Source: an uncultured bacterium
GTDB taxonomy: Bacteria; Patescibacteriota; Gracilibacteria; Absconditabacterales; Absconditicoccaceae
Length of the DNA: 64,000 nt
NCBI GenBank assembly: GCA_937862565.1
Contig: CALMFT010000020.1
Coordinates: forward strand, 1 to 64,000
Direction of reading: 5' to 3'
Below the pieces are notes generated by a model. That model saw nothing but the letters and a program-made list of their open reading frames with translations, was not told the DNA's origin and did no database searches. Within the stretch, counting starts at the first letter, position 1. Each line of letters starts with the position of its first letter. Of the stretch, positions 16,269 through 64,000 are shown one piece after another. The position numbers and the translations under genes were made by a program.

Positions 16269-16350
16269 ATTAATTCAGTAAATCAATGTTGTATTTCAAT
16301 ATCATTACCCTAGTGTTAAGGTGTTATATTTAATATTTTTTAAATTACGT

Positions 16351-17409
16351 ATGACCGCTATACATAAGCTTATTCCCATAGACATAAGTATACTCAAGGA
16401 ATTACCCAAAATTGCCAATAAATATAGACTTCCTAATACCAAAAAAGCAATCATCCAACTCTGTACTTCTGTATTGCCCTATATCGCATTATGGATTAGT
16501 ATGTACTTTATGGTACAAGAATGGGGATGGTGACGAGGAATTGCTGTAGCAGTACTCAATGCATTTTTCTTAGTCAGAATATTTATTATTCAACATGATT
16601 GCTGACATCAGTCTTTCCTCTCTTCTCACAAAGCAAACAATCTTATCGGTAAAATATGTAGTTTTCTTACTTTCATACCCTATACTTATCGATCTGCAGG
16701 GCATAGCTTTCACCATAATCATGCCAATAAGTTACGAGAATTTCGCGATATAGGTGATCTGTATACTATGACTACACAAGAGTTTATGGATGCAAGTATA
16801 TGGAAAAAGACGTGGTATATTATATTTCGTAGCCCTATTGTGATGTTTGGGATTATTCCCATTCGGTATATACTCTTCAATAATCGTTTACCTCTAGCTC
16901 GCCTACCAGAGAAAAAAAAACTTAATACGTCATTGATATCAAATAATCTGATTACTATAGTACTCTATGGAGGGATTGGATATTTCCTAGGTACCCATAC
17001 ACTTCTGTCTGTACAACTACCTATCTTGGTGATATTCGGTACTATCGCTATTTGGTTTTTCTATATCCAGCATCAGCATGAATTTGGCTATAAAGCACGA
17101 AAAGATAAACGAGAATACATTCGTTCTGCTGTGCAAGGAAGCACTTTTTATAATCTTCCTAAGCGAATGCATTGGCTAACAGGAAATATTGGATATCATC
17201 ATATTCATCATCTCAATGCTGCTATTCCGAGTTATGAACTCGCAAATTGCTATAATAAAGAACCCTTATTGCAAGAAGTAGCTCAAAAGGTTGGGTTTTG
17301 GGAAAGTTTACGTTTTACCTGGTGTCACTTATGGGACGAACAACAGCAAAAGATGATTTCTTTCTGGAAATATTATAAAATATATGGTAAAGAAAAGTCT
17401 AAAATTTAA
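16351..17409 (+). CDS. Membrane fatty acid desaturase / hydroxylase
   Basis: Di-iron integral membrane enzyme that introduces double bonds (or hydroxyls) into acyl chains. The 352 aa product has the three histidine boxes: HDCGH (residues 82-86, its Gly encoded by TGA), HSFHHNH (about 118) and HHIHH (about 283). Hydrophobic spans lie at about 40-58, 62-80, 140-160, 195-215 and 220-238. ATG 16351 was chosen over an upstream in-frame GTG at 16321. It faces an ArsR-type regulator with overlapping stop codons (TTAA at 17406-17409). Within the family it is closest in layout to acyl-lipid desaturases; the regiospecificity is unknown. Confidence 0.92.
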
Positions 17410-17964: not shown

Positions 17965-19203
17965 TTATTTAATAATTTTTTGGGTCGATCCCCTATTTAC
18001 TTGTATAAAATATATTCCTTCTCCGAGACATGATAAGTCTATTTGTGAAGAAATATTATTTCTCTTGTAAAATACAGTAGCTCCGCATAAATTTCTAATC
18101 TTTACTTCTTTAGCTTCCGCTGAGAAATATAGTTTATCACCAAATGGATTCGGATAAATTGATAATTCTTTTTCATTCTTATTGTCACAGTATAAAACTG
18201 CCGAATTACTAAAATTATTATTAATATCCACGATCTTAAGCCTATAATAGGCATTAAAAAATTGCTTGTCAAGATATTCATACCTATCACCAGCATAACT
18301 CATTGTATTCAGAATTTGGAAATTTTTTCCATCCCAAGATTTTTCAATCTCAAAATGAGAAAAATTTTTCACATCAGTCACTTCCCAACTCAATAAATTA
18401 CCTTCTTTGCTAGAACTAGCAACGAAAGACAATAAATTAAGCGGTAAAGGAATGTATGAATTTCCACATACTACATCAAAGTTCATTATATAAGATCCTA
18501 CTGGACCTTCAAATTTTACAATATACTCTAGGTCTGCATTCCCATTGTTTTGGATACATAACGATCCAGTATAAAGTTCATTTGTAGTATAGCCTGTCGT
18601 AGCATTACCTGGAAATAATCCGCAGTTCAAACCTGCTGGTATATTACTACACCATCTAACGCCTGGAGATAAAATAAGATGAAATATCCTGTTGTCATCA
18701 ACTGAGTTGATAGTCCCACAATATTCAATGGTCGGACATAAGTCATAAAAATCACCAATATTTATTTCTCCACCATTCAATGTCATACTTCCCGTATTCA
18801 AGCAATAAGAGGAATACGTGAATGATGAAAAATTTCCAGTTCCAGTGCATAACAAAGTAAAAGTCTGATTAGTCGCAGTATTATTATCAATACAAACTGG
18901 CCCTGCATGAGGTCCAGAGTAAGAAACCTCAGTTCCTGTGAAGGCAGAACCGTCACCTTTGTATACATACCAGCTCATTCCACTAACTGGAGGCATAACA
19001 CAAATACTTTGTCCCGGAGCAATGCTCTGAAATACCCAATATCTATTATTTTGCCAGCTAGCAGTTTGTAATGTGTTGTATTCGCCACAAGTAGGAGTAT
19101 TACTTCCTAGTTGGATGCTGCTATTAGGCCAATTAAATGCTTTTGCACCGAATGAACCTAATAAAAAAATTAAAATAAAAAAAATAATGTTAAAATTTTT
19201 CAT
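17965..19203 (-). CDS. Secreted protein with Bacteroidota-type T9SS C-terminal sorting domain
   Basis: A protein of 412 aa. Residues 1-22 are a signal peptide (MKNFNIIFFILIFLLGSFG). The central region is Cys-rich and beta-rich with NNTATNQTFTLLC-type repeats. The segment PLPLNLLSFVASSSKEGNLL and the following ~90 residues are the fibronectin-like stretch that often precedes sorting domains in Bacteroidota. The C-terminus has LSIYPNPFGDKLYF followed by GEGIYFIQVNRG and KIIK, the hallmark type A (Por/T9SS) sorting domain. Strikingly, none of its roughly 36 glycines is TGA, unlike other envelope proteins here. It sits alone between intergenic regions with its own terminator. Recent acquisition from a standard-code Bacteroidota donor is the likely explanation; export by a T9SS in this host is not shown. 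Confidence 0.9.
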   Translation of the reverse strand: MKNFNIIFFILIFLLGSFGAKAFNWPNSSIQLGSNTPTCGEYNTLQTASWQNNRYWVFQSIAPGQSICVMPPVSGMSWYVYKGDGSAFTGTEVSYSGPHAGPVCIDNNTATNQTFTLLCTGTGNFSSFTYSSYCLNTGSMTLNGGEINIGDFYDLCPTIEYCGTINSVDDNRIFHLILSPGVRWCSNIPAGLNCGLFPGNATTGYTTNELYTGSLCIQNNGNADLEYIVKFEGPVGSYIMNFDVVCGNSYIPLPLNLLSFVASSSKEGNLLSWEVTDVKNFSHFEIEKSWDGKNFQILNTMSYAGDRYEYLDKQFFNAYYRLKIVDINNNFSNSAVLYCDNKNEKELSIYPNPFGDKLYFSAEAKEVKIRNLCGATVFYKRNNISSQIDLSCLGEGIYFIQVNRGSTQKIIK

Positions 19204-19401
19204 TTTACGAGAATTTTATGTGTTAACTTCTATCATATAGCCCTAGAAGTATAGGCTTTAAAGAAATATTAAAGAACAAGTACATTTATTTTATACATAA
19301 TTATCAAGCATTTACAAGTAGTTGAAAAATTCATAATAGAAATTGTTTATGTATTTTGTAAAGATAATCCGTTCACAATAACAACTATTAACATCAATTC
19401 T

Positions 19402-21490: not shown

Positions 21491-21590
21491 TATCATAAAA
21501 CCCTAGAAAAAAGATGCCAAAATGGTATATATAAGAATGTAAATAAGACTGCTTTTCTACCCACTTTGTCAGCCTTTGAAATTCCAATTT

Positions 21591-24500
21591 ATGAACAACA
21601 AATTATTCATATATTTTCGTAGTTTTTTTTCATTTTCTAGGTTTTTTTTATTCCTCAAGTACTGTATAGTATTTGTTTTTTCTTTGTTCCTTATTGGGGA
21701 TAGTTTAGTTAATAATCAGATTATTCAGATTATAGATGATCTCAATGCAAAAAATAAATTATCTGATTCATTTGTCGCTTTGACGGAAAAGGTTTTGGAG
21801 ACCCCTAAGGTGTATGCTGTTATCATACCGTGATGTATAGTAAATAATCCAAACAATGATGTTTGGGATCCTTCAAATGCCACCAGCATAACTCACGATA
21901 ACACAATCGTCTTTTATCAAGGAACTCCTTACAATACTCGAGCGCTCAAGACACTAAATGGAGGAACTGGAATAATGAGCATCACCTTTGATGTAAGTAG
22001 TTTATATAAATGGAATCAATTGAGATCATACCGATGAATAGGAGGAATTCGAAATTTACAAACTATTGCTACTACGGTTAATTCAAATACAGCATGTCCA
22101 GCTATGACATTAAACCAATTTGATAGTACTTTTGCAAACCCTCCTAGTAATTATGTAGCTCAGCAAAGATGATCTACTTCACCATATTATAGCATACTAT
22201 TAGACAATCTTGCTACAAATAGTAGATTATGTGCGTATTATAAGATACGAGGGTGAGATTCTATTAATCTAGAACGTCTGGAATATAACTGTACCACTAC
22301 TGATCTCCAACTTGATATTATTGGCCCTACTACGGCTGACATAAACTGGATTTCTGGAAAGCCTCGACTAAAAGAAAAATTCACTATTAGTAATCTTGCT
22401 TGAATTACGAATAATCAACCTTTAACTCTACAACTATCTGGAACTAATGCATGACGAGATAAGCCCACTAATTCCAATATTTATCCCGTTACTAGGGAGT
22501 CCAGTAATGCAACTGCTTGTCCAACAAATGGGAGTATGAATAATCTATGAACAATTTCGTTTGGAAGTAATTTTACAATAGACTCAGGGGAATCTTGTAC
22601 TTATAGCATTTTATTACCCTACACAGATCCTCCAAATACAAATCAGGGAGGCAATGTAAGAATTGTTTGGAGGACTTTAGTTACAGGTGATATCAATGAA
22701 CCTTTGGACATAAGAGATAATAATGTTGCAGAAGAAAAATCATTTATAGATGCAAATCCTATTACTACAATTAGTAAAAAAATATTTAGAGATACAGCTT
22801 GTACAGTAAGTGCTGATTCTCCTTATCTTTTTGAGTCAGGAAATTCATTATGTTATGAAATAGAATTTAAACATAAATCAGAGTCTCCATGGAAGTACCC
22901 TAAATCTTGAGAGAGTTTTATACTTTTTGACCAATTACCAGCTAATATGCCTCCTTTAGCATGTAAATATTCCACAGGTGCTAGTTGGTTTGATTGTGGA
23001 GTTTGAGCATGAGTAATTCGAATGCAAGGTGCCATCAATAGTACCATTTCCGTTGCAAATAGTATTATTCCAGGTCAAAAAATAAAAATTAGATTATTTA
23101 CTGGATCACTTACTCCAGATTTTATAAATAATTATAGCATGGACCCGAACTTTAATACTTTCACAAATCGGGTTAGTACTACTAATTCATTTCCTTGTAA
23201 CGGAGATAATTGTTCTTCTGTGGATGGACATGTAAGACTTTTTCCTGATCTTAAGATTGAGATAACGCCATTTACAGGGGCTTTTACTGGCTTACTAGGA
23301 GACGATGTATCATTTGAAGTTAAAGTTACAAACAAAGGACTTACAGGAGCCGTAGCACCAATGTTATCAGGGATAGTAATAAATAATATAACCAATCCTA
23401 CTATTATAAGACAAGGAACTACCTGCAATAATCCATGATCACGGAATGGAAACAACCTTATCTCTTTTGAAATAGCAAATATCTTAAGTCCATGATCAAG
23501 CTGTACATATATAGTCAAAGGTAAGGTAAATACTTACAGTCCTATAAAACTCCGAGGTCATACTTTTGAGAAAATAAGTTGACCATGATCTGATCCTAGA
23601 GAAAAAGATAACACTAAAGCTGATAATGTTACTGGAGCTCAATTAAGCTTCATAGAACCCATTTTGGACATAGGAATAACTAAGAAAGCAGGTACTTATA
23701 AATCTTCTAACGGTTCTTGGACTTGTGATACTACTACAGATCCGAATCCGAAGTATAAAAAAGGTGATACTGCGTGTTGGATGATTACTTTCACTAATAA
23801 TTCTTCTCAGTTTCCATACCCTACCAATCCAAATATTCATACTCTTACTGGTACAGATATATTACCTCTATGATTTTCTCCGAGCGGTTGTAAGGCGTGA
23901 ACACCAAATGACCTTACTTGTACAATAGTAAATGGATTGATTAATATCAAAGATATAAATGATACTACTTACCACATACCATTATGAATAGTAAGCCCAT
24001 ACAAATCAATCAGTATTTTCATTACAGGTAAAGTCACCGACCAATTACTTCTCTTTCATCTAGATAACAATCCCCCAAAGTTAATCAAAAATCGGGTTAA
24101 TACTTTTACCCACAATTTGATAGGTTCTGGTGCTACTATTTCGGCCAGTGGGACAGTCTCTTTTGTATATCCAGATATACAAACTAAAGTAAGTGATCAA
24201 GATATTCTATGAAAAGCAATCTGAGACACGGGCTCGCTCACAATAAAAATTGAGAACATTTGAAGTACAGGATATAGTGGTGATTTATATTTCACAGGAA
24301 ATTTATTCTGATTATTTGGAACTAATCCTATTGCAGTTACCAAAGAAGGTGGAGGAGATACAAATTGCATTGTTCCTCCTTTCATTCCAGCTGTAACAAA
24401 TACCTTTTCTAATCAAATTCTTAATACCAAAAAACTCAATGCGTGAGCTTCTTGTATATATAAAATAAGCTGAAAATTAGCAAAAACTGGCCCTCTCACT

Positions 24501-27500
24501 TGATACTTTTATGCATGATTTGCTGGTACTAATGCAGAACTCAATCCAGAACCACATTTTGAACCTTTCTATATTAATAACAATATTGCTATTTGGACAG
24601 GCACATATACTGGTCCTATTACTGATTTGGCTATTCAAAAAGAATGGAGTTGTGATCCTATATCAGTAGCAAAAATTACTATTACCAATACTTGAACTGT
24701 AAATATTACTGGATTTACAATTAGTGATAACCTTCCAGTGGGGGTGACCTTTCAAGATGGTAAGCTAAAAACAGGAACAGGAAGTAATAACCCTCAAGTC
24801 ATTTGCGAAAATACTATTCAAGGATTTTACTTTAATCAAGGTAATCTCCAAAATGGATTATGGGTAATAAGTGGAGTGAATATTCCTCCAGGAGAAAGTT
24901 GCATCTACACTGTATGACTTACTGGAGATACTAGTTCCAATAATCAGTCATTACTAAATCAAAGTAGCATCAGCAATATTTTCCCTAGCGAAACTGCAAA
25001 TATTAGTAGCACTAACAATTCATCAGGTTCAATATGATGATTGGCATGTTTATATAGAGGAGATGAATCAAGTATCGTAAAAACAATGTCCGGGAGTAAT
25101 TCGTGTAATCTATGAGAAGAAGTTATTATTAATTTTACAGTAAGAAATCAGACGGATGGAGATCCGCTTTTAAGTACTCTAGATGCTTTACATATAACAG
25201 ATGAATTACCACCATGATTAGAGTATGTAAACACTAATTTATTCCTAGTTTCTGGAGATCCAGATCAATGTCGAACAGATGAAATAAGTTTTGATACTCT
25301 TACCAATACTCGAGCACTTACAGGAATAGCTATCCAACCTTATACAGAGCATCCTGATTCCACTTGTGTATATGGAATTATAGCCAAATTTACGCAGAAT
25401 CTTTGAGAAAACTTTGTAAACACTGGTATATTAGCCTCATGGGGATATAGAGAACCTCCTACGTATGCTATTGCTGGACGATATCCATTTACAGAACCTG
25501 TGATAGCAAATAATACAAGCGCCTTTCCTTGGACCTGTATTGATGCAGAGTTGATTATTGATAAGCAACTCTGGATTTGTCCTACAAATAATGGTCTCAA
25601 TTGTACACCAGCAACTGAGCCTATTATTCTGCCTATAGGCACATTTATTCAATATCATATCAAAATCACCAATCCAGGTCCCGAGCCTATTTATTCTTAT
25701 GTTATTACGGATGACATTCCTGCTTGATTAAACTTTCAATGAGGAGTAAATAACGGCAATGTTCAAGTACCAGCATGATGTAGTATAAGTGGAGGACCAA
25801 ATTATACTATCACTTGTGCTGTTCCTATTTTACAAGGAGAAAGTAGAGACATTATTTTGGGGATCAGTCAGCCTATAGAATCTACTACGGTAGGCGAATA
25901 CTGTAATACTGCGACAGTACAAGGAGTTCTTGGTGGAGAATGGGAAGGGCTCAATATTTCTCCAAATGAAGATACGGTTTGTCATGAAGTAAAAGCACCA
26001 AAATGTGATGATCTTGATAATAATATTATATGACAGATACAATTAATAAATGATGATTACAATATAGCATATAATTGTACAGATGATTATAATCTAAATT
26101 ATTGAGAATTTATAGAAGCTAAATTATGGTTGTATGGAGGAAGTCTCGGAAATGAGATATTAATAGGTTCTTCACCAGATATCATATGAACCTTTAATTA
26201 TCCAGGTGATGATATAAACGATATATACATTCAGTGTATTTATGGAGGAGGAAATGAACCTTTAATCTGTAATGATAATATTAATGATCTACCAACATGC
26301 GAGCAAGTAACTGTAAATCCTATCAATGCTTCTGCTAGCAGTGGTGAAGCAATTACTTGTTCGTCACTGGGAGGAATTTCATGAGTTGCTAATCCTATCA
26401 TGACTTCAACTGTTCCTGGGCCTCAATCTGTAGAATGTAACTACAATTTTGATTCCATTATACCAGGGTATGCTTTATCATGCCCCGTGACTATTGCAAT
26501 TGCCCCACTATGAACACCGGTGTGTAATGCAACTATTACAGTTAATGAAAATGGCATCAGTTCTACCTGCCAAGCAACAAACCCACCTTGAGGGAATATC
26601 ACCTCTTGGATAATAGCTTACCCAGATGGAAGTACTATAGGTTACAACAACACTCTTCCCTTACCAGATGAAAACGCGGAAGGAACTTATACCGTAAATT
26701 GTATAGTGGACTTGAATGGCCAAACGAGTAATTGTAGCGCTACTGGTACTTTTACAGCACCAGGGTTTTGTGGAAATGGAATCCCAGAACCACCAGAAGA
26801 GGAGTGTGATGATGGAAATATGAATAATAATGATGCCTGTACCAATGAGTGTAAAATCCCTCCTCCTATTACTACAACGCCGACTACAACGCCAACGACT
26901 ACTCCTACTACAACACCAACGACTACTCCAGAAGAAATAGAATGCGGAAATAATATTGTAGAATGAAGCGAACAATGTGATGATGGGAATACTCAAGATG
27001 GTGATGGTTGTAGTAGCACTTGCCAGAATGAATCTTTCAATTGTGATGGAAAAGATCCTACTGTGAGTTTCAGTCCTTTGGCAGGACAATGAGGAAATGC
27101 TCCAGTACCCAATAACATATCTGTAAGCTGTGGCTCACCTTTGCCTCATACTACAGAGCTAATACAGGGATGAGTAACTATTTCTTGAGGACCAAATTGG
27201 TATCTCACTCAAATCGGGACATACACTGCCATTTGTAAATATGAGTGAATAGATTGTTCAGATGATTTCACACTAGGTCAAGATTGGCAATGTCCTACAG
27301 GAAGAACTTTCACATACGATAAACCTAATAATAAGCTGAATCGATATTGTCCTGACGCGACCAGTCCCGCTGCTATTTTCAAAAATGCTATACTCACTCC
27401 AGGATGAACTCAAACTCTTTCACAAGGATTTATAAATCCCACTAATGCAGGAAATCATACATTGGACTGTCAATATGACTTTAATGGAGTTATGCAATCT

Positions 27501-30500
27501 TGTGTTAGTAATACAAATGTAGATATAGAACCAGGTGGCTGTGAAGATCCGCTAATTACTATGAACCCAGATATCCCAGATAATTATCTTGATTCTCCAG
27601 TGGTTGTAAATGCCTCTTGTCAATGATTTGGATCGGATACGGCTGATATAGAAATTACTGGTCCTAGCTTCGGAAGTGAAGCAAATGGGAAAGAGAAGAT
27701 CTTAAACTATGGTCCTACTGCCGGTGGTATTTATACAGTTACCTGTACTCATACTGCTGAAAATATGATTGAGAATGAAAGAGTGTGCTCTAAAACATTT
27801 GAAATAAAAACAAGAGAATGGATATGTCCAGAAGATAAAAATCTTGTAGCTGAAATTAATGCTTCACCTCAAGTACCAGGAGATCCAGTATTGGTATTGG
27901 CAGGAACTCCAGGTAGTGTGATCTGTAAAAATATAGTAAAAAATGGTAATGAAACTAGAATAGGAGCCAATGGTAATATGGTTCTAACAAGAGATGACAT
28001 TACAGTTAATCCTATTGACCTCTTTATTAACAAAGGAGAATATAATATAGCGTGTGAATTTGATTATGGGGGTATGCATTATAGTTGTAACCGTAAAGTA
28101 AAAGCTCTCTTCCCAATGTGTGAAGTAGTTACTAAGGTTGAGCCAGAAAAAGCTCCTTCTTCATTGGATGTAAAAATAAATATAAAAGACGAAGATGGCA
28201 CAAAAATACCTCAAAGTTTAATGCCGAATATAGTAGCCTACCCTGTTTGCAACGCCACAAGCGAAAATTGATGATTCCTTATGTCTATAGATCCAGGATC
28301 TAGTAGTAATCCAATATGACAATGAACGTTTGGAAATATATGAAAATGATCTTATGACATAGTCTGTGGGATAATAAATATATCAGATCCAAAGAAAATT
28401 ACTTCTTGTAAAAGCCATTTCGAAGTATCAGATAAGGATTTGAATAGCTGTGATGGTAAATTTACAATTGATTCTCAGCCAGCTAATCAAAATACTGTCA
28501 TAAAAATAAATAATAATACAGCTAACCTCAGCTGTCAAGGTGGTACAGTTACTGTATTACCTTGAAGTGCAAGTGTTACCCCTCCACGAACTCTCGCTTG
28601 AAATACCTTCACTTATAATGGTCCTAAAATGGAGTTCTTTGCAACTTGTAAGATGGATAATATAAGTTGTTTTGGTAAGTTTGAAATGGCAGGATCAGGC
28701 ACAAATACGTGAGGAAATCTTTGTGGTAATGGAACTATCGATGGCTCAGAACAATGTGATTGACTTAACTTAGGGCAATGTACCGAATGAGATACTTGTA
28801 ATGCCTGTCAATGCGCTAACAACCCTCCTAATACTGGTAAATCCGATAATAATACATGAATAGTAATTCCTGTATTAACAGGTGTACAATGTACCGTAAC
28901 ACCGCATCCATCTGAAAGTATTGAAGCAGGAGCACCGTGGACTTTAGGATACGTATGTAATGGTGGTACTGAAGTAACGAGTTATAGCGTAGCTATTAGT
29001 AAACTAGAGGATAATTCACCAAAAGGAACTTTTACCCAATCAAGCTGATGACCATTTTCAAATCTCACAGCAGTGTGACCTTTAAGTAAACTTACTGATG
29101 CAGGAACATATAAAATAATCTGTAATGTATTTGGTGCAAACGGTGAAAGCAAAGATTGTGACACGCAAATAGAAATAAAGATAAAGGAACCAAAATGTGA
29201 AATAAAGGGCGAAATGATAAGTGCAAAAGAAAGAGGAACTATTAAATATACCATGCAGTTGGATACGGTTGGTCTTCTCGTTAGCGAAGTAGAATATATT
29301 TGTGGATTGGTAAATGAGAGTAATATCACAGAAAGTCTTGCAGGACAAGTATTGTCAGCTACTTTTGCAGGTATAAAAAATGGCACTTATAAGACGCTAT
29401 GCTTCGTAAGAAAGAAAGGTGTAACTAACCGAAATGATGCAATCAGATGTGAAGATGGTCCTTTCAGTATTACTCCAAATGGGCTTGATGATTGTAAAGA
29501 TGCATTTCAAGTAACTAATAGTGTAAAAACATCTGATACTCCTCCAATTACATATACAGTAAATAAAGCTCCTGCAACGGTAACTTGTGTATGAGGAACT
29601 TTACAGCAACCGAGTTCTCCTACACTTACTTTCCAATGACAAACAAGTTACAATGTGGTATGTAAAATGGCTGGAGGATTTACCTGTAGTGCAAAAGTAG
29701 TAGGCACCGGAGACGCAATAGACCCCAATACCAATCCTCCAGGAAGTGGGTCATCCAATCAAACTTGAGGAAATAATACAGGAGGAAACAACTCTGGTGA
29801 TTCAAATTCAGGACTTACTCAAGATACCACGTTTGATCTCGCCATCAGTAAACAAATTACGAGCGAAACTAATAAAATAGGATCTCCTGTAACCTTTGCT
29901 ATTACTATCAAAAATGAAGGTGGAGTGGGAGTTTCAGGTGTGAGTATCAGAGATCTGGTATTCTGATTAACAGGTATCAAAATGGGTAAAAATCTCGCTG
30001 CTCTCAATCCTTTTGTTGGTAATCCTTCGCTCGATATTGTGGTAGGTTTCCCTATCAATCTGTGAGCATGAGAATCTAAAATATATTATCTTCAAGGGAT
30101 TCTTACTCAATCATGATTTAGTAATAGTGCTCAAGTCTGCGAATATAATGGTAAAGATAAGAGTGTAGTTCCGCGTGATATAGATAGTATTAGCTGCAAT
30201 GGATATGATAAAAATGAAGATGATGATGATATAGTCGGAGGAAATATTTATAGCGGTAGTATTGGTGATTGGGTTTGGTTGGATACCAATGAAAATGGAA
30301 TACAAAATACTGGAGAAATTTGAATTTCAGATATCCCTCTTCAGCTTATTTCATGTACGGATAATATAGTAGTAAAATCTATGCTCAGTAAAACTGATGG
30401 TAAGTATCAATTTATGGGACTCAATCCTGGGTCTTATAGAATTCAAGTCTCGCTATCAGGATTTATCAATTACAAGTTTAGTAAATACAAACAAGGAAAT

Positions 30501-33500
30501 AATGATATCGTAGATAATAATCTGAGCGGAGCAAGAGTGGGGAACAGCGAATGTATCACAGTTGTGGGTGGACAAAATTATCTAAAACTTGATGTAGGAT
30601 TGATTCCATCTCCTACGGATATTGTGGTAACTAAAAAAACTACTCGTAAATTTGTTACTGAAAATGATATTCTCAAATGGATAATCACTGTTAGTAATAC
30701 TTGAGAATGAGTTATTACTCATTATACCCTCAGTGATAAGATACCAGCTGTTCTCAATTATAAAGTAATGTCATTGTCTTGAGGCGATAGCGAACTTGCA
30801 AAATGTGGTTACCCTATTGCTCGACAAATATCAAATAATTTGCTTACAGGAAAGGTGAATAATGCTTATATAAATCCATGACAAACTTGTACTTTTGAAC
30901 TTACTACTCAAGTTACTAAAGCACCTGCTAAGGGAACTTACACCAATACTATTTGTGCTACTTGAGTCAACCTAGAACCAAGTAATAAACTAGCGAACAA
31001 CTGTGGTAGCGATAGCATACAGGTTATCAATGCTTGCCCAAGTCTGACAGTTACACCAGATTTTGGAGATAATCCATTATCCAGTACTTTCAATTGTAAT
31101 CTCACATGATCAAATACAGGGTATATTCAGATACTTTCTAGTAATGATATTTTATTGAAAAATTATAGCACACTCAATGGTTCTCATCTGTTTGATAAAA
31201 TTGGTTACTATTATGTCGAATGTGTGAGTAAACAATTTGCCCCAGAAAGATGTATCAGACCAGTTGTAGTGAAAGAACTTTCAGAGTGTTTAGATCTACA
31301 AGTCAAAGATCCTACAAACACAATTATCAGTACTGGGAACAATGGCGGAAAGGTTCTTACTGCATGAGAATATGCGGTATATTGTACTGGTCAATGAGTA
31401 GAAAAAACAAAAATAGTTCTCAAAGAAGATAGTTCAACATGATTGATTATACAGACCATCAATACCAACTCTGGAACGATTACAATTCCTCAATGAGGCA
31501 AGTATATTATTCAATGTCTAGTAAATGATGTAGTGGATTATAAATTTGATTATATTAGTAAGCTACCAGAAGGAATAAATCTCAGCAATAACAGTTGCCC
31601 TTATAAGATTTCTAAAAATGGATCTTTGTGTGCTGTTACACCAAATGTAGCTCCGTACAAATTCAATTTCATTCCTATCATAGAGTTTAAAAATAGCATA
31701 GATCCCATAGAATACTGCTCTGCTGGTCAAGTAAATTCTCTGCCATGCAATACTACCAACTTTGACAATACGCTCGTGAAAAATCACAATAGTTGTATTA
31801 GAGAAATAATAATCAGCCAACCAGATATTATGGTAACTAAAAAAGCAAACAAAATATATTACACAGGTACTGATAATATAAATTACAATATTACTTTTAC
31901 GAATATTGGAGACTTGCCTATTACGTCGCTCAGTCTTTCCGACAATTTATCAGAATATTTAAAATTATCTGGAGAAGTGAATTACCATATAGAGACTGGA
32001 AAATTCTCATTCATAAAAACTCTTTCCAATTCTTCATTACTCTGGACGCTCTCAGGCACCATTTTGCCAAACCAATCAGGTTCAATCAACTTCAAAGTTA
32101 CAGTAGCTTCATGAAGCAATATCCCTATCAAAAATAAAATTATAGCTAATGCTGTTGGTGATAAATATCTCGCAAATAATATCTCAGAAGCAATAATCTA
32201 TCCATTAGGGTGGAGTGGAAATGCAAGTACAATAGGCGATAAAGTATGGTCAGACACAAACTTCAATGGAATACAAAATGTGGGAGAACCAGGAATAAGA
32301 AATATAATAGTAGAACTTATCAGCTGTACAGGTAATACTATAATCGATACGAGTTATTCTGATAATAATGGTTATTATAGCTTTACTGATGTACCAAAAG
32401 CAAATTATAAAATTAGGTCATGATTGCCAGCTGGATATATCTTTACTTACTGAAAAGTATGAATTGATGATTCTAAAGATAGCGATATTACACTTGGTAA
32501 CACTTCCAATTGTTTTGTATTTGCAGGAAGTGGTAAAAATCTCAATAAAGATATTGGGCTTTACGATATTCGTAATTATACAGGCACGAATTTCTGTAAT
32601 TACAACGGTGTAATGGAAAAGAATCTTTGAGAGCAGTGCGATGGTGATGACGGAGTATTCGGGAACACAGAAAAGTGTATTGCATGTAATATCAATAAAT
32701 TATATCCAAATTGTGGCGATGGAGTAATTCAACCATGAGAATCATGTGATTGTAATAGTGTACTTCCAGCTTGATCAAGCTGTGTAGAATGTCAGATAGT
32801 GGGTTGAGGTGTTTGTGGTAATGGAAAATTGGAAGGTCTTGAAGAATGTGAAACTACAAGCCAACCCATATCAGGATTACAATGTGTAAGTTGTAGACTA
32901 CTTACCAATAATCTGTGAGTCTGTGGCAATGGAACTGTGGAAGTATGAGAGATGTGTGATCTAGGTTCTGCTAACGGCAGTAATGCAACGATACCAAGCG
33001 GTACCTATAAGGATAAAAACTGTAGTATGAATTGTAATGTTTCAGATAATAAATGTAACATCATTAGTAATAAAACAATACCAGAATGCACACAGGTAAT
33101 TTCTCCAAATATCATGGAAGGAGAATACTTACCATTTCGATGGGATATAAGTAATAATCAGATTATAAATTCTAAGGTTTGTTCTCCAGGTAAAATACCC
33201 GCTGACACAGTGTTTTGTTCATTTGCACTCTATGCAGGCTGATCAGGTACAACTTCTGAGCCTCTTACTCTTATTACTCTTCCGTGTGTAAATCCAAGTT
33301 CTTATGATAAGCCATTACTTGCTTCGTTTAACGCAGAATCAGCAAACTATATCTGAAGGTCATATATTCAGATCGCGAACACTATTACAAAAGGGAAATA
33401 TGGAGAATATAAACTTCAATTACAAAAAATTGATTACTCAGTGTGTGTAGGTAATACAGGACAAACTATCAAAAAAATTGTTCAATCAAATGAAAGTGTA

Positions 33501-34283
33501 ATTTGCGAATATAACTTTACAGTTTCTAGACCCTACCTCATGCAAGTAGGAAATAATATTTCTTCAAATCAAACTGATGCTCTCAGTAATTTTTACGGCT
33601 TCTCATCCAATTCAAAACAAAACATACTCCAACAATATGGTATTAGACTTACCCCACTTACGCTCAATAAATTCAAACCCAATGCAAACGCAGAGTATTT
33701 GGTCTCTCAGTTTGTTAAGAAGCAAGAACAGCGTGCAGTAAAAAGTATTGAATTTGGTCCCAAAACCTCAAAGGTACCTTGATCAAATATATTTATTTAT
33801 GATGGCGACATTACATTGGATGAACAGACTCTTGCAAGTGATGAAATAAGCACGATTATTGTTAAGAATGGTAACTTAACATTCTCAGGTTCTCTCAAGA
33901 AAAATAATCTATATATCGTTCCTGATGGTGACATTATATTTGCAAACGCTTGTGAAGAAGATCAAGTAATATATGGAGCACTAATAACTAACAATAAATT
34001 CTTATCTGACATACCATATAATAATACTAATCTACTGAAACCTTGGTGTAATTGATGAGGACTTAGTATTTATGGTTCACTTATTGGTCAAGGATTGGAT
34101 GAACTGATATTACAAAGAAGATCTAAGCTTAATGGTTGGTTTGTGAAAACAAATACTCGAGATAAATATCAAACATTACTTAATGGCGGAGCGGTAACTA
34201 TAATAGCAAACCCTGCTATCTCTACTTCATCTCCCCCATGATATACAGAATTTACGAATAGTTTTAATTCAGTAAAAAATTAA
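21591..34283 (+). CDS. Giant surface protein (4230 aa) with DUF11-like, DUF4215 and SdrD-B-like repeats
   Basis: One uninterrupted frame under code 25, with TGA extremely frequent as Gly and a final TAA. An N-terminal hydrophobic segment (about residues 20-45) serves as signal or anchor. The body alternates DUF11-like beta domains (repeats of the type ITNTGTVNITGFTISDNLP followed by PPGESCIYTV). DUF4215-type Cys-rich repeats begin near 26766 (CGNGIPEPPEEECDDGN), 26942 (CGNNIVEGSEQCDDGN), 28718 and several times in 32590-33060. Two SdrD-B-like domains lie near 30255 (IGDWVWLDTNENGIQN) and 32235 (IGDKVWSDTNFNGIQN). A Thr-Pro linker separates the first DUF4215 copies. The C-terminal 170 residues (NIFIYDGDITLDEQ..., YGSLIGQGLDEL) form a separate beta domain. 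It is probably an adhesin or surface fibre. The gene at 34286 follows after 2 bases. Confidence 0.88.
26871..26930 (+). repeat. Thr-Pro coding microrepeat in the giant surface protein
   Basis: Tandem degenerate 12-base units of the form ACTACAACGCCG encode a (Thr-Thr-Thr-Pro)n linker between two DUF4215 Cys-rich modules. Such linkers are typically extended and prone to length change. Confidence 0.85.
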
Positions 34284-56568: not shown

Positions 56569-59500
56569 TTAAGATTTTGGTGCATCTACTTCAAGTTTAA
56601 TTTCAGCAATTGTCGTCTCTCATTTTGTGATAGTATATATTACTTTTCAGTTATCAAAACGATACTGAGCATTATAAACTCTATGATAAGGCTTGGAAAT
56701 ATAAATATAACCCTGTTTAGATATCAATATTTCACATACTCCTTCTTTTTGTTTAATACATTGTCCATTTGCAAAATCATTGAGCTGATTTACATCATTT
56801 GGCAAAGGAATCACTGTGTATCAGGCATTTAAAATGCTTACTCATTGCGCAGGATTAAAACTTTTTGGTTTGAGATAAATGCGATAAAGTTCTAAATTAC
56901 CTTTCATAAGCAGAATTTTAGGGATATTATCTATAAAATCTACTTTTACAGTAATATCTTTAGTATTATTGATAATTTGACCTTCTGGAGTCATACTTAT
57001 ATTGAGATAAGCACCGTTTACATCATAAAACCCTATATCTTGTTTAAATCAGAATGCTCCTCAGGTAATTACAACTTGATTAGTTTTGGTCTCGAAAAGA
57101 GATTTCTTATTGAGTATTGACTGGAGTAAGGATTCTACTCCATTTCTAATTCTCATAAACTGAACTCATCCTGTATCAATATCATTGTCAAGAGAGCTCA
57201 CAACTTGAGATTGCGCCAATTGATTTGTGATAACATCATCTAATGATAACTTAGGCAAACCAATATCAATCACAACTTCTTTCTGCGTTATGTTTCAAGC
57301 AGAATCTTGACCTACAAGAGTGTAATAGAATTTTTTTGGTTTATCAGTATAAATATGTTGGATTAAAATAGCATCAGTATCACCCGAAAATATAATTTTC
57401 TTCTGCTCATCTAATATCCAACTTTTAACTACTTTACTATCATCAAACCAAGATCCTTCAAGTTTATAATATGTTTTAATGTTCCCATACATGTTATCTC
57501 ATTGAGTTCATCAATCATCTTTCAACTCACGAATCAAAGACACGTCTGCATAAGGAGCTGAGGTATCAGCAATGATTTGCATTCCTGCAGTTTCATTTGA
57601 AGATCGAGGAGACGATTTACTGATGATAGTGAGAGGAGTTTTGTCAATAAACGGTATCAATTGCAACAAAGGATTATTTTTTTCTTGACTTTGAAGTTTT
57701 GCAATTTGAGAGAAATACCATCTTCTAGGCAAATTCTTAAGCAATACATTTATAATATCTTGGTCATCTGTAATATATTGAATCATTGTAGAATCATTGA
57801 TTGCTATCGATACTCAATCTATATTAACAGAATTAATTTTCTTTCACTGTAGAGCATTATCCAAGAAAATAATGTACTGATAATCAGCATTTTTTTGATA
57901 TGATTTATTGATATTATCACTATATCTTACGATATATCATATCAATGAAGTGTCTGTGGACATTTCTGATTTTACTGTATAGGTCAAGGATTGATAAGAT
58001 TGACCTGCGACTTTCCATTCTTTAGGCATAAAATTCTCAGACCATATTTTTACTCAATCGATATATCAATATTTATCAACTTGATTAGAAATATCGTCAA
58101 TAGTATTGAATACATAACTCTTCACGATTGCATTGAATGTATTTTTATCATTGAGTATTTCTGTAGTTCTTTTAATATAAACTGTATGCTGATCCCAAAA
58201 TACAATTTCTTTTTTATTATCATTATCTAAGTCTTTTTCAAAACTTCTTTTTGATACTTCTTCTCACTTATCGATATTACTAACGATATTGTGATAATTC
58301 TCATCTTTACCTTCAACAAAATATCATCTAATATATTGAGTAGGATCACTTGCTGCCAATGAAGGTGTGGAACCATTAGCTACAGTGCTAGTATTTTGTG
58401 AAAGTAAAAGCCTATTAGTGGTGTTATTACTATTATCAATAGATTTTTGATCACAAAACGTACAAGTAGTTACTTTCTCATCTGGGTTAGAAGTACTTGA
58501 TATATCTGTTTGATTAAGAGCAATCTGAACTGTGTTTATGTTATTTTTTAGTTCACCAAGATATGCTTTGGATTGGTCATAATCAGATTTTTGCATTCAT
58601 AAAGTAACATAATCAGATTGATCTAAAGCAGAATAATAACCATTGATTACTTGTTGTTGAGTAGAAACATATTCTTTTGGTAAGTTATATCCTTCTATGT
58701 AATCCAATGTCTTTTTATCTAAATTCATCACATTGGTTTTCAGGCTATATGTATTTTCATCATTACTTACATATTGGGTATTAGCCAGATTATCAAGCCA
58801 ACCATTGTAATCTTGTTGAACCCAATTCTTGAGTTCATTATTTTTTTTGAGCTCAGTATTCATAATTACACTTGCTTGAGTTTTGATATCTTGGATACCT
58901 TTAGAATTTATAGTTGTGGTAGTAGGATAATCATATGAGCGTGTAATTTCTCCAGCAAGTAATTTTCTTTGCTCTGCTCATATTTCATTATCCATACCAA
59001 TAAAGTAAGGCAGATCACCTTTGATTTTATTATTCACACTAGAATAATCAGAATCTGCTGTTGCCATAGTATCAAGAGTAAAATCATACCCTGCTTGCGA
59101 AGCAAGTTTCTGATTATTGTCTATTTGACCAAATGGACTGACATTCAAATTAATATTAGTTGAATCTATCTTTTCCAAGCCATCATCAATAATATTATAG
59201 AGCTTTTCTCAAGATTGAATGAATTTTTGAACTACTGATATTTGATCACTATCAGTTATGACTGATCTTGTCGCATCGTTTACAACGTCAGCAATACCAT
59301 CAAACAAAGAATATATGCCATCAAAATACATTTTTACATCTGCAAATGCTTCAAGCTTTATATCAAAACTTCCTCATTCTACTTTATTAGGCTTGAAAAG
59401 ATTTACTGTTTGCAGTGGTGGTTTTGGTATAAGTACTTTGAAACTATCAAATGGTTCTACATTCCATGTTCTTTGAGTCATTTGCTCGATCTTAGACTTG

Positions 59501-62500
59501 AGTCAAGCTTCACCTACTAACCCAATTCATCCTTTCACAATACAGAATATTCTTCAAATAAAATCAGCAATATCAATTGCCAATCCTAACTCTGGCGCAA
59601 TCTTAGGAATTTTTGGCGCAGGAGGAAGAGTAGGACCTTTAAAGGTAATCTGAGGAATAAAACTTGGTAAGCTAATATTGGAAAGATCTGGTGGTTTGGG
59701 TATTACCGGTAACTTAGGTAAACTTATATTGAGTTGCCCATTAATCACACCACCCATCGAAGGCGGATACGGGATGTCAGGAATTCCAAATTGTAAAAGA
59801 TTTTCAAATATTCCTACCTTTTTTGGTTGAAATCTCAATCTAGGTAATATAATATCTGTTCTAAGATCAAGGTTACTGAGATCAAGAGTAATAGATGGTA
59901 TCTTAAATGGAGGTATATTAAATACAGGCAGACTTGGACAGAATCACTTAAAGGAACAACTATATGCACTATAATTATCTACCGTACATTTACTACATTT
60001 TTCTTTCCAGTTTACTGTAAAATCAATAAGTATCTGCCAAGATTTAATAATATTGGTAAGCGAAATAATAAAGCTTATCCATGCATCAAATCATCTCGCT
60101 ACTTTACTCAACCAAGAAGTAATTGCATCAATAGTTCCGTATGCAAAATTGAATACATCATAAATATATTTATCGTAACCATGAAGTAATTCATACACTT
60201 GTTTAGGTAACTGACCATACATTTCTATAGTCTGAATATTTTGATTTACACTACGTTCAAACTGTCCCAATTGATTATTAATTTGTAAAACATCATTTGC
60301 AGCTGTTTGACATTTTTGTTTTTCAATTGTATCAGTAATTTTATCACATTGTTTAATAATATCTTTTCAGAAATTAGCCCATTCATCAATAATAGTTTTA
60401 TTTCTAGCTAGCCACGCAGTTCGTACTCATTTTAACTTACCTATATCTTCAGTATATACTCGTGGTATCTCAACAGGAACATCCTTTGTGCTGATACGAA
60501 TAAGTTCACTTTGACTGAAAAGCACAGACAATTTATCAAATGGATTGTTGAGAGTAGTATCCAATTTCTTGGTAAGGTTTTGTTTACTCTGTACAAATGA
60601 AAGTAATTTTCAAGTGTTAGTACTGAGAATCTTTGCTTTATCTGCTTCGTATTCTTGATTGAGTTGGGCGGTAGTTTCATAATCAGGTGATGACTTGGAA
60701 AGTGAGTTACCAATCACAGAAACTTGATTAGCCAAACCATCAAGATCTGGTAAAATTATATTTAAATTTAGAGTAGTTAGATTATTAATAATGTATCTAA
60801 TCTGATTATCAGCAAATTGATTAAGAAGACAGCTTACTAAACCTTTATCACTCGAAGATTTTATATTAAGATCCAAAGAATTACCTCATTCAAGTTTAGT
60901 TTTAGTAAAGAAACTTGATGAGCTGATACTATCATAGTTGGTAAGATTCGCCTGTCCTCATAATTTAACAACAAGACCATCTTGTCCCTGAGCTGTATTT
61001 AATCGCGTATCAACTTTACCAACAACAGTTTCTACCATTCTTAACGGTGAATTTTTTGCGTTTGATCATCCATTACATACATTGGTATCATCCAATTGCT
61101 TTGTTTCACTATTGATAACATATTCACCCACAGTTTCTCAATCTTTAACTTTGCATTTACCAATTCCTGGATCAAGAGCAAAAGTAATACAATTGCCAAC
61201 GATATCCTTGAAAGGTTTTGGGATATTGATACCAAGTCCATATGATCAGAAACAAATACCAATTCCAAGCTTAGCAGTGAGCGTAGGCGAAAAATAAATC
61301 CTAACCATCGATGGATATGTTCATCATCCAGCTCGATAAAATCAATCTCAAGGACCCTTCTGACCGATCGGTCACAAGAAAGGCATAGGCCCAAAGGTAG
61401 TTTGTAATGTGGATGGAAACCAGAGCAATGGCAATCACTTATCCTTAAATATTTTGCATCCCATCACTTGCATGTCTCAAGGCGATAAGAAAGCCATATT
61501 CCAAGGAAGACTACTCAAGATCGGTACTCCACTACAGTTTTTTTGACCTACTTTAAATCATTCGCATAAACCTTTCGTAAGTGATACGATTTTACTATCA
61601 AGCATTTCATCTACATTGGCTCCAAATCCTCATACTTTGAGTGTTGTTGAAATATTAAGATTACCTATTTTTTCCATAGCTTCTCCCAAAAGTTGTATTT
61701 GTTTGAGTGCAGCATCTTCACTGAGTACTCATTTTTGATTCCAGGTTTCATTAATTAAATTTTTTACACTATCCTTTATTCATGAATCATCAGCAAGATT
61801 ATCAATAGTATCGTTAAGGCTGTTATTAAATTCATTTTCATCTTTTTTCTGCCTATCATCGATTTCTTTTTGAAGATCAACTTTCACCTCACGGAAAAGA
61901 TTTTTGATCGTAGATCCTACATTATCTCAGACTATTCTTCGGATATATTTTGCACATCCATCAAGTGGAGTAATATCAATCCATGATTTTATTTTGGTAG
62001 AATCTTGTGCATAAGCGGATGGAGTGAACAATTTACCAATAGAGCCGTTGATACCATTTTCATCTGTTGCGTCTTCACCATTCTTTATGCTTACCAATTG
62101 TTGTGATTTGAATACTACATGGTACCCAAAAGTATATGATTTACTTTTATCAAAGGTAATATTATCAATCATAAATAAATATGATGGACCAGGAGCAAGG
62201 ATATATTTATAATCTGCATTGAGGTCGCCAGCGAAGAAACCTATTTGTTTATCTCAATTTACAGGGACTTCTCGAGGTCAAGAGAGTTTTTCAATATATG
62301 TTGCTTTATTTGCTCATTTTGATTGAATAGTAATCTGAACTTTTACTACGTCGCCATCTTCAAGTCTACCACCATTGAGATCTGTAAATATTTTGTAAGT
62401 ATCTACTTTGTCTGTAGGAAGCAAGGATTGTGCTTCTTTATATACTACTTCTGGAAGTTTTGGCTCATAGACTGGTGAATAAGTAGAATCCAATGTGATT

Positions 62501-64000
62501 GTAGTATCCAAACTTGCCTGATAATTTTGTAATAATGTAGCAGGATCAAACGCATCAAATATTTGATTTTTAACACTATTGATTATTTCTTTTGGTTTTT
62601 TAGAATTGGGGATAGTAATATCTACATTTACTTTATCAGGTTCTTCAAGATCATCCGCGCTAGAGATATCAGGATCTAGGGCAGGCAACTGTAGATTAAC
62701 AAGATTATTTCGATGAACCAAAGCTTCATCACGGATTTGAGCATTATCAATTTGAGGAGCAAACGATTTGATGATACTTGTATTATCTTTTTGTCTTTTC
62801 CTTCGATCCGGATCGCATCAAAATTTATCACTAGAAATATAATTTCCTCCACCAAATCAAAGATTAAATAAGGCATTATTCCCACCTCCTAAGAACAATC
62901 TAATGGTATTATTTTTATCCAAAGTTACAATATCAGTTACTTTGTCTTTATTATAATCTGTAAGGAACCGTTGGTATACACCATCAAGATTTTTCTCTCA
63001 TCACGGGATATCCAGACAAATGGGGTAACCATCTACGTCCACTTTCTCTCCATTTTGATTTTTATAAAATCTTAATTGATTATCTAATGTATGCACAAAT
63101 ATATCTTGGTAACCATCTCCATCTCCATCTCCTATCAGAATATTTTTTATTCCATCTGCAATCACTGCGAGATCACCAAGTTTTTTGTATTCATCTTTTC
63201 CAATAGCAATGAGTAGTCTTAACCTACCATCACTGTAGACTATCAATAAGTCCTTTACTCCATTTTTATCTCGATCAATATCAATAACCTGAGATACAAC
63301 ATTATCTGGATCTGAATATAATGCATCTCATATTGAACCATCGTAATCTGTTTCGCCTACCAATTTATTTTTATCTCCCAAACGGTAAGTGGGGTCACCT
63401 AAGTTAATAACAAATTCACTCGCAAATGCAGTACTCGCCTGACCTACTGAATCACCTTGTGCCATATTAGAAATTGGCCTAAAATAATCACCAAATCCTA
63501 TATCAAAATTACTATCATTACTATTTTGAATACTAGGAACACCTTTATTAAAGTCAGAAAGTACTGATTGTATCTCTTGAATAACAATTCCTTCGAGAGT
63601 TCTTTGACCCATATTCATAGGTACCACTTGGTAAACGGAAAGATCGAGAGCGTTCTTTCGCTGTTGAGTAAGAACATCAGCATCGTAATTATATGATTGC
63701 ACCATTTGAGCAATTTCTTCTCAATCATAACTGATGCTCCACAAGTCATAACTCGCAAATTTTGATTTATATTCTATCTTTATTTTACTATCAATTATTC
63801 AATTTTGTAAATCAATAAGTGGATTACCTTTTGTAGTTAGAGTTTTACCTTGTATATTAAGTTCCAATTTACTTATTTGATCTGGGTCAAGAATGATATT
63901 CCAATTGTTTATTGAAGAATTAGTGTCGAAAGAATTAGTTTGTTTAATACCAATCTTATTAATATCAATATAAGGTAAGAATCCATATGGAGTGAGATAT
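56569..64000 (-). CDS. Second giant surface protein with FG-GAP/VCBS-like repeats, 5' end beyond window
   Basis: One open frame under code 25 covers at least 2477 codons and runs off the right edge, ending at TAA 56569. The visible N-terminal part (63000-63350) has Asp-rich repeats of FG-GAP/integrin-alpha type: VSQVIDIDRDKNGVKDLLIV, ILIGDGDGDGYQDIFV and FLTDYNKDKVTDIVT, probable calcium-binding propeller blades. Further on are long helical/beta stretches with many LDLNIxLP-type segments (SLPKLPVIPKPPDLSNISLP near 59700). No catalytic motif, sorting signal or C-terminal TM helix was recognised in the part seen. It is likely a very large extracellular or surface fibre. Relation to the giant at 21591 is one of size and style, not of recognisable sequence. 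Confidence 0.82.

Follow-up and report, generated by a model that had tools for sequence, protein, structure and literature searches.

The 64,000-nucleotide stretch analysed here (the window), contig C20 of a Gracilibacterial draft genome (G000; 1.27 Mb, 46 contigs), contains a gene that probably belongs to a class kept readable by the standard-code ribosome of Bacteroidota, a class that would be transcribed in the parasite and translated in a Bacteroidota host. The genes of this class lack TGA, a glycine codon in their own genomes, carry Bacteroidota-type leaders and signal peptides, in some cases end in TGA, and have been conserved over the long term in a lineage whose 49 sampled genomes lack SprA, Omp85 and RF2. 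Translation in the host would be the simplest account of all these features, and a literature search found no report of T9SS signals in Gracilibacteria or Absconditabacteria, or of a TGA-free gene class.

A preliminary description had placed the window gene (P0001) at 17965-19203; these forward-strand coordinates were right, but its coding strand is the minus strand. Its features, together with a TGA-using counterpart in the same genome that is considered below, are as follows:

17965..19203, minus strand: gene of the T9SS-type sorting-domain protein P0001 (412 aa, stop TAA)
19138..19203, minus strand: signal peptide, residues 1-22 (MKNFNIIFFILIFLLGSFGAKA), based on the sequence and a model helix at residues 2-19
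18160..18489, minus strand: Bacteroidota-type linker domain, residues 239-348, containing LLSFVAS...FEIEKSWDGKNF, based on sequence matches
17968..18159, minus strand: T9SS C-terminal sorting domain (CTD; Por_Secre_tail), residues 349-412, based on Pfam and NCBIfam
19290..19317, minus strand: sigma70-like promoter TTGTAA-N16-TATAAA, 86 nt before the ATG, based on the sequence
L009:about 1170-2718 (on G000:C4): TGA-using CTD-like gene (others are L102, L098, L064 and L050)

The sorting domain recognized in the preliminary description scored above both curated cut-offs (PF18962, 40.9 bits against 27; TIGR04183, 36.3 bits against 23). The signal peptide, with hydrophobic residues 5-17 and an AKA end, was read directly from the sequence without a dedicated predictor, and helix 2-19 stands in an otherwise low-confidence structural model (AlphaFold without an alignment, pLDDT 36). 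The residue at +1 is F, a departure from the Q-rule described below. The linker domain is common to other Gracilibacterial CTD genes and to Hymenobacter/Cytophagales proteins, at about 25-33% identity, and a search with the N-terminal 230 aa found no useful relatives. Matches of P0001 in the sampled Bacteroidota were partial only, mostly at 25-45% identity, with no close full-length relative among them; a search against phages gave no match, and matches to plasmids were confined to the C-terminal parts of Bacteroidota proteins. With its beta-rich regions, signal peptide, CTD and the Bacteroidota-type linker preceding it, P0001 has the features of type A cargo of the Bacteroidota T9SS (TIGR04183/PF18962); unlike such cargo, it occurs in a lineage without SprA or Omp85, is TGA-free in a genome where TGA encodes glycine, and has a local sigma70-type promoter. 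The adjoining desaturase gene (16321-17409) uses TGA, and two giant open reading frames of the window (21576-34283, 4235 aa; 56569-63867, 2432 aa) show ordinary TGA use, with 97 and 57 TGA codons.

As had been described, P0001 can be read in the standard code: none of its 36 glycine codons is TGA (translation table 25), whereas TGA makes up 23% of the glycine codons of the other window genes (P about 1e-4). The caution that low TGA use extends to asnS, and that codon evidence alone is no proof, was well placed. Taken alone, the zero of P0001 is weak evidence, because EF-Tu (0/38) and asnS (0/31) of the same genome also lack TGA; EF-G has it at 2 of 64 glycine codons.

It is only at the scale of the whole family that the absence of TGA becomes overwhelming. 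T9SS CTDs were found in 29 of 49 genomes of the order, all from one family, compared to 20 of 380 in a sample of the phylum (10 over the cut-off). We retrieved 72 CTD genes together with the flanking DNA and set aside two on standard-code contigs and six that use TGA; the remaining 64 genes, from 27 genomes, had no TGA at any of 3250 glycine codons, with about 1068 expected from neighbouring genes. Among genes in which at least five TGA codons were expected, none was present in 54 of the 64 CTD genes versus 21 of 392 others (P 3e-42). Of these 21, many code for secreted proteins and adjoin a CTD gene. P0001 is a likely member of the class by its CTD, its absence of TGA and its signal peptide. 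Contamination or chimeric bins were rejected as a source, as TGA-rich genes surround the class members on one and the same stretch, in a single-contig genome (G042) as well. The two excluded contigs (L104 on G011:C44 and L107 on G011:C55) are standard-code contigs in a Gracilibacterial bin with one CTD gene each; L104 has genes for a DNA polymerase and a GroEL-like protein in addition, and resembles a large phage.

The CTD-like genes that do use TGA (L009 of G000, 8/41; L102 of G035, 22/66; others also in G001 and G029) have T-rich leaders of the cell's own type, and a separate, self-translated class of CTD genes may exist. L009 is one of two further CTDs in the source genome. The other, at L008:9346-10572 (G000:C27), consists of a 241-aa reading frame with a signal peptide ending in AQ, followed in the same frame by a 167-aa CTD reading frame; both are TGA-free with a TAA between them, and this is perhaps a decayed gene. 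Two small TGA-free reading frames with A-rich leaders on the same contig (L008:325-1191) are candidate members of the class.

The 20 bases preceding the start of the CTD genes were 62% A, versus 35% A and 41% T in the other genes of the cell (starts in all leader and signal counts are first-ATG calls). Adenine was found at 84% at position -6, 81% at -14 and 65% at -3, compared to 36, 33 and 43% in the cell's own genes, and at 70-81% across -11 to -14, compared to 31-43% in own genes across the positions examined. Adenines at the same positions (-3, -6 and -11 to -14) were reported to promote initiation in Flavobacterium johnsoniae (PMC6847099). The leader of P0001 is moderate compared with the class (A at 10 of the last 20 nt), and a small, GC-rich Bacteroidota control (24 genes at 47% GC, their starts crudely called) did not show the same richness in A. 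Shine-Dalgarno sequences are rare in both gene sets, and differences in them were rejected as a distinguishing feature.

The proteins, too, carry a mark of Bacteroidota. By a crude signal-peptide test, a Gln following a small residue near the end of the signal peptide was present in 34 of 43 CTD genes versus 23 of 82 others (P 6e-8); exposure of Gln after the signal peptide is the Bacteroidetes Q-rule (PMC5837995). The promoters are of a different kind. CTD genes are preceded by a sigma70-type promoter, in many cases TTGACTTTT...TATAAT, and their leaders span roughly 40-90 bases; the pattern TTGAC-N16-19-TAnnnT was found in 16 of 43 (0.6 in shuffles) and in 47 of 408 own genes (8.4 in shuffles), and promoters were alike between related copies (G045/G046, G007/G008). 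The Bacteroidota promoter TAnnTTTG was not enriched upstream of the CTD genes (3 of 43), and Bacteroidota-type promoters were thus rejected for them.

In three CTD genes (L084, L056 and L085) the reading frame ends in TGA exactly at the end of the CTD, and a rho-independent terminator (a hairpin and a T run) lies only a few bases downstream. A Gracilibacterium would read through these stops into the terminator, while a standard-code cell would find a normal gene end. A profile search for RF2 across the 49 genomes gave none over the cut-off, with 10 of 14 controls positive. The search for SprA that had been suggested in the preliminary description found none in the 49 genomes of the order, hence no T9SS in the source genome; Omp85 was likewise found in 0 of 49, so there is no sign of an outer membrane. 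A Cytophagales genome served as a positive control for SprA, and the Omp85 control was positive as well.

EF-Tu is as a rule one of a bacterium's most highly expressed genes, and it uses TGA at 6.8% overall, compared to about 31% in genes overall. In G045-G047 it nevertheless keeps 18-24 TGA codons, and in G025 it keeps 13, whereas the count for the CTD genes across six genomes of this kind is 0 of 547; EF-Tu leaders, moreover, are T-rich. Expression level was therefore rejected as the cause of the missing TGA.

The preliminary description had read the gene as a transfer from a standard-code donor that had not yet drifted to the local code, an interpretation that is partly supported overall and is not supported at class level. 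Related TGA-free CTD genes share loci across species and genera, lying beside rpsL/rpsG, a trigger-factor-like gene or a pilin-like gene (neighbours named from reading the sequences). Where the same locus was compared, neighbouring genes were up to 94-97% identical and the CTD proteins 27-69%; transversion differences at conserved fourfold sites of the CTD genes reached 0.31-0.57, which is saturation, and TGA appeared at none of the conserved glycine sites, whereas many sites of the neighbouring genes have gained or lost it. The comparison of codon usage proposed earlier likewise gave no donor-like profile: apart from TGA, codon choice equals that of the neighbours (CGA 15% vs 15%), and GC3 tracks the genome in which each gene resides (r = 0.74). 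As judged from these comparisons, TGA is kept out of the class by selection and not by youth, since silent sites at conserved loci are saturated without TGA and codon usage is local; recent arrival of the class is not supported.

Full-length Bacteroidota relatives were not found in the sampled genomes either, which also speaks against a recent donor. For a 510-aa family, the best matches in 297 Bacteroidota genomes covered repeats of about 140 aa, with identities of about 30-45%, and no full-length relative was found there, while Gracilibacterial copies are up to 66% identical over their full length (the Bacteroidota sample, 297-396 genomes, is partial and may miss the true host). In this family a correlation between the divergence of gene and neighbour was suggestive (0.77, P 0.07). 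In a 700-aa family CTD identity and neighbour identity were uncorrelated (Spearman 0.16, not significant), so that import or swapping at hot spots keeps some probability, and CTD genes at one shared locus are not always homologous to each other.

The class extends beyond sorting-domain proteins. In stretches of G046 and G018 that were sampled regardless of CTDs (up to 400 kb each, TGA being 61-67% of glycine codons), TGA-free genes numbered 22 of 314 and 36 of 275, counting those with six or more glycines, with 0.02 and 0.05 expected. They make up 7-13% of the sampled glycine-containing genes, are interspersed among TGA-rich genes and have A-rich leaders, and TTGACwT is enriched upstream of them (P 2e-7 and 2e-4). 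Their products include Q-rule secreted proteins and lipoprotein-like proteins, an OmpA-family protein, PurC, PurB, Prs, a formyltransferase (PurN-like) and PurA; PurC, PurB and Prs have phage-family relatives (PHROGs). One run of six TGA-free genes (L203:356-6382; G018:C1, 61% TGA-Gly) includes an OmpA-family protein and an ABC ATPase.

In the mechanism that we propose, the Gracilibacterium, which reads UGA as glycine, would transcribe the class genes from its own sigma70-type promoters, producing messages with adenines at the recipient's preferred leader positions, no internal TGA and standard stops, some of them TGA. A message (DNA being less likely) would enter an attached or invaded Bacteroidota host by a putative route and be translated by host ribosomes; the products, most with a Gln-exposing signal peptide and many with a T9SS sorting domain, would be placed in the host envelope by the host's Sec, lipoprotein and T9SS pathways, and the cytoplasmic PurA, PurB, PurC, PurN-like and Prs proteins may push host purine synthesis for the parasite. 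We infer translation in the host, RNA as cargo and purine provisioning from these patterns, and Bacteroidota as the host phylum from the sequence signals. The full version of this scheme, with two gene sets of which the second is sent out as mRNA, sorted in the host by Sec, lipoprotein and T9SS routes and used to feed the parasite with purines, is plausible but tentative. At class level, standard-code readability is kept by selection and the initiation region is of the recipient's type (moderately so in the window gene). A recipient-type promoter, as expected had DNA been delivered, was not found; that promoters are of the donor's type and only translation and sorting signals of the recipient's favours RNA over DNA as the cargo, short of proof. 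Counting against this reading are, for the window gene, the missing Q at +1, the moderate leader and a P of about 1e-4 on its own, and, for the class, the TGA-using CTD-like genes, the incongruence of the 700-aa family, the leader control and the phage-family relatives of the purine enzymes.

Every signal but the promoter looks Bacteroidotal, and this would also be expected if genes were recurrently and recently transferred from Bacteroidota hosts or their phages into hot spots, as passengers or captured functions, with the TGA-free state, leaders and signals as donor relics. Non-homologous CTD genes at one locus, the uncorrelated family and the phage-like purine enzymes fit this account, but we consider it unlikely: same-locus copies are saturated at silent sites and still lack TGA, codon usage, GC3 and promoters are local, the 510-aa family has no full-length relatives in the 297 genomes, and TGA-free genes make up the 7-13% of sampled glycine-containing genes given above. 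A phage or plasmid cargo shuttling between Bacteroidota and Gracilibacteria and working in both codes is more doubtful still. TGA-avoiding phages that possibly infect both alternative- and standard-code bacteria have been reported (PMC10746230), and both excluded standard-code contigs carry a CTD gene, one of them beside a DNA polymerase; the class genes, however, are found one by one or a few in a row between TGA-rich genes, at chromosomal loci that are conserved, and for P0001 the phage search was negative and the plasmid matches were partial.

Selection against TGA in genes that the Gracilibacterium translates itself, by very high or stage-specific expression with scarce tRNA-Gly(UCA), the CTD serving the Gracilibacterial surface, would agree with the strong sigma70-type promoters and with the lowered TGA of EF-Tu. 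This is improbable, though a little less so than the shuttling cargo: EF-Tu keeps up to 24 TGA codons where CTD genes have none and has T-rich leaders, and TGA stops without RF2, Q-rule signal peptides and T9SS domains without SprA or Omp85 would be left unexplained. Least probable is a periplasm-dwelling predator whose own Sec system secretes proteins into the host periplasm, there to be taken up by host T9SS and glutaminyl cyclase; this would account for the presence of CTDs and Q-rule signals where T9SS is lacking, but not for TGA exclusion, TGA stops, Bacteroidota-type leaders or cytoplasmic enzymes.

Genes translated in the host would have partial parallels in known systems. The T-DNA genes of Agrobacterium are likewise kept in one organism and formatted for the expression machinery of another; here, the transfer would be from bacterium to bacterium, with translation and sorting signals fitting the recipient and promoters fitting the donor. 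Dual-code phages of Gracilibacteria also avoid TGA, so that their products can be made in standard- and alternative-code cells (PMC10746230), whereas the present genes occupy conserved chromosomal positions surrounded by TGA-rich genes and combine leaders and export signals of the Bacteroidota type. Nucleus-forming jumbo phages are reported to export mRNA from the compartment of transcription to host ribosomes in another (PMC12908238), and resemble the present case in this split and in phage-like auxiliary metabolic genes; here, the parasite is a cell that has ribosomes of its own and differs in genetic code. A plain horizontal transfer from Bacteroidota would share the domains and the code, but not the long residence, the saturation, or the local codon usage and promoters. 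If the host-translation reading is correct, this would be, to our knowledge, the first bacterium with genes meant for translation by another bacterium. The deviant code would reveal the class without experiments, missing TGA flagging candidate host-directed genes and yielding an effector-like gene list for uncultured parasites with the host phylum named from sequence, and the question of RNA delivery between bacteria would be opened.

Several TGA-free genes lie close to CTD genes. One, at L101:10770-16319 (G022:C6:67770-73319), adjoins a CTD gene and encodes an 1850-aa RHS/YD-repeat-like protein with a Q-rule signal peptide. On G020:C103, a gene whose product has an outer-membrane-barrel-like C-terminus (L109:7773-9224) stands beside a 1602-aa CTD gene, with a desaturase-like gene nearby (L109:17419-18504).
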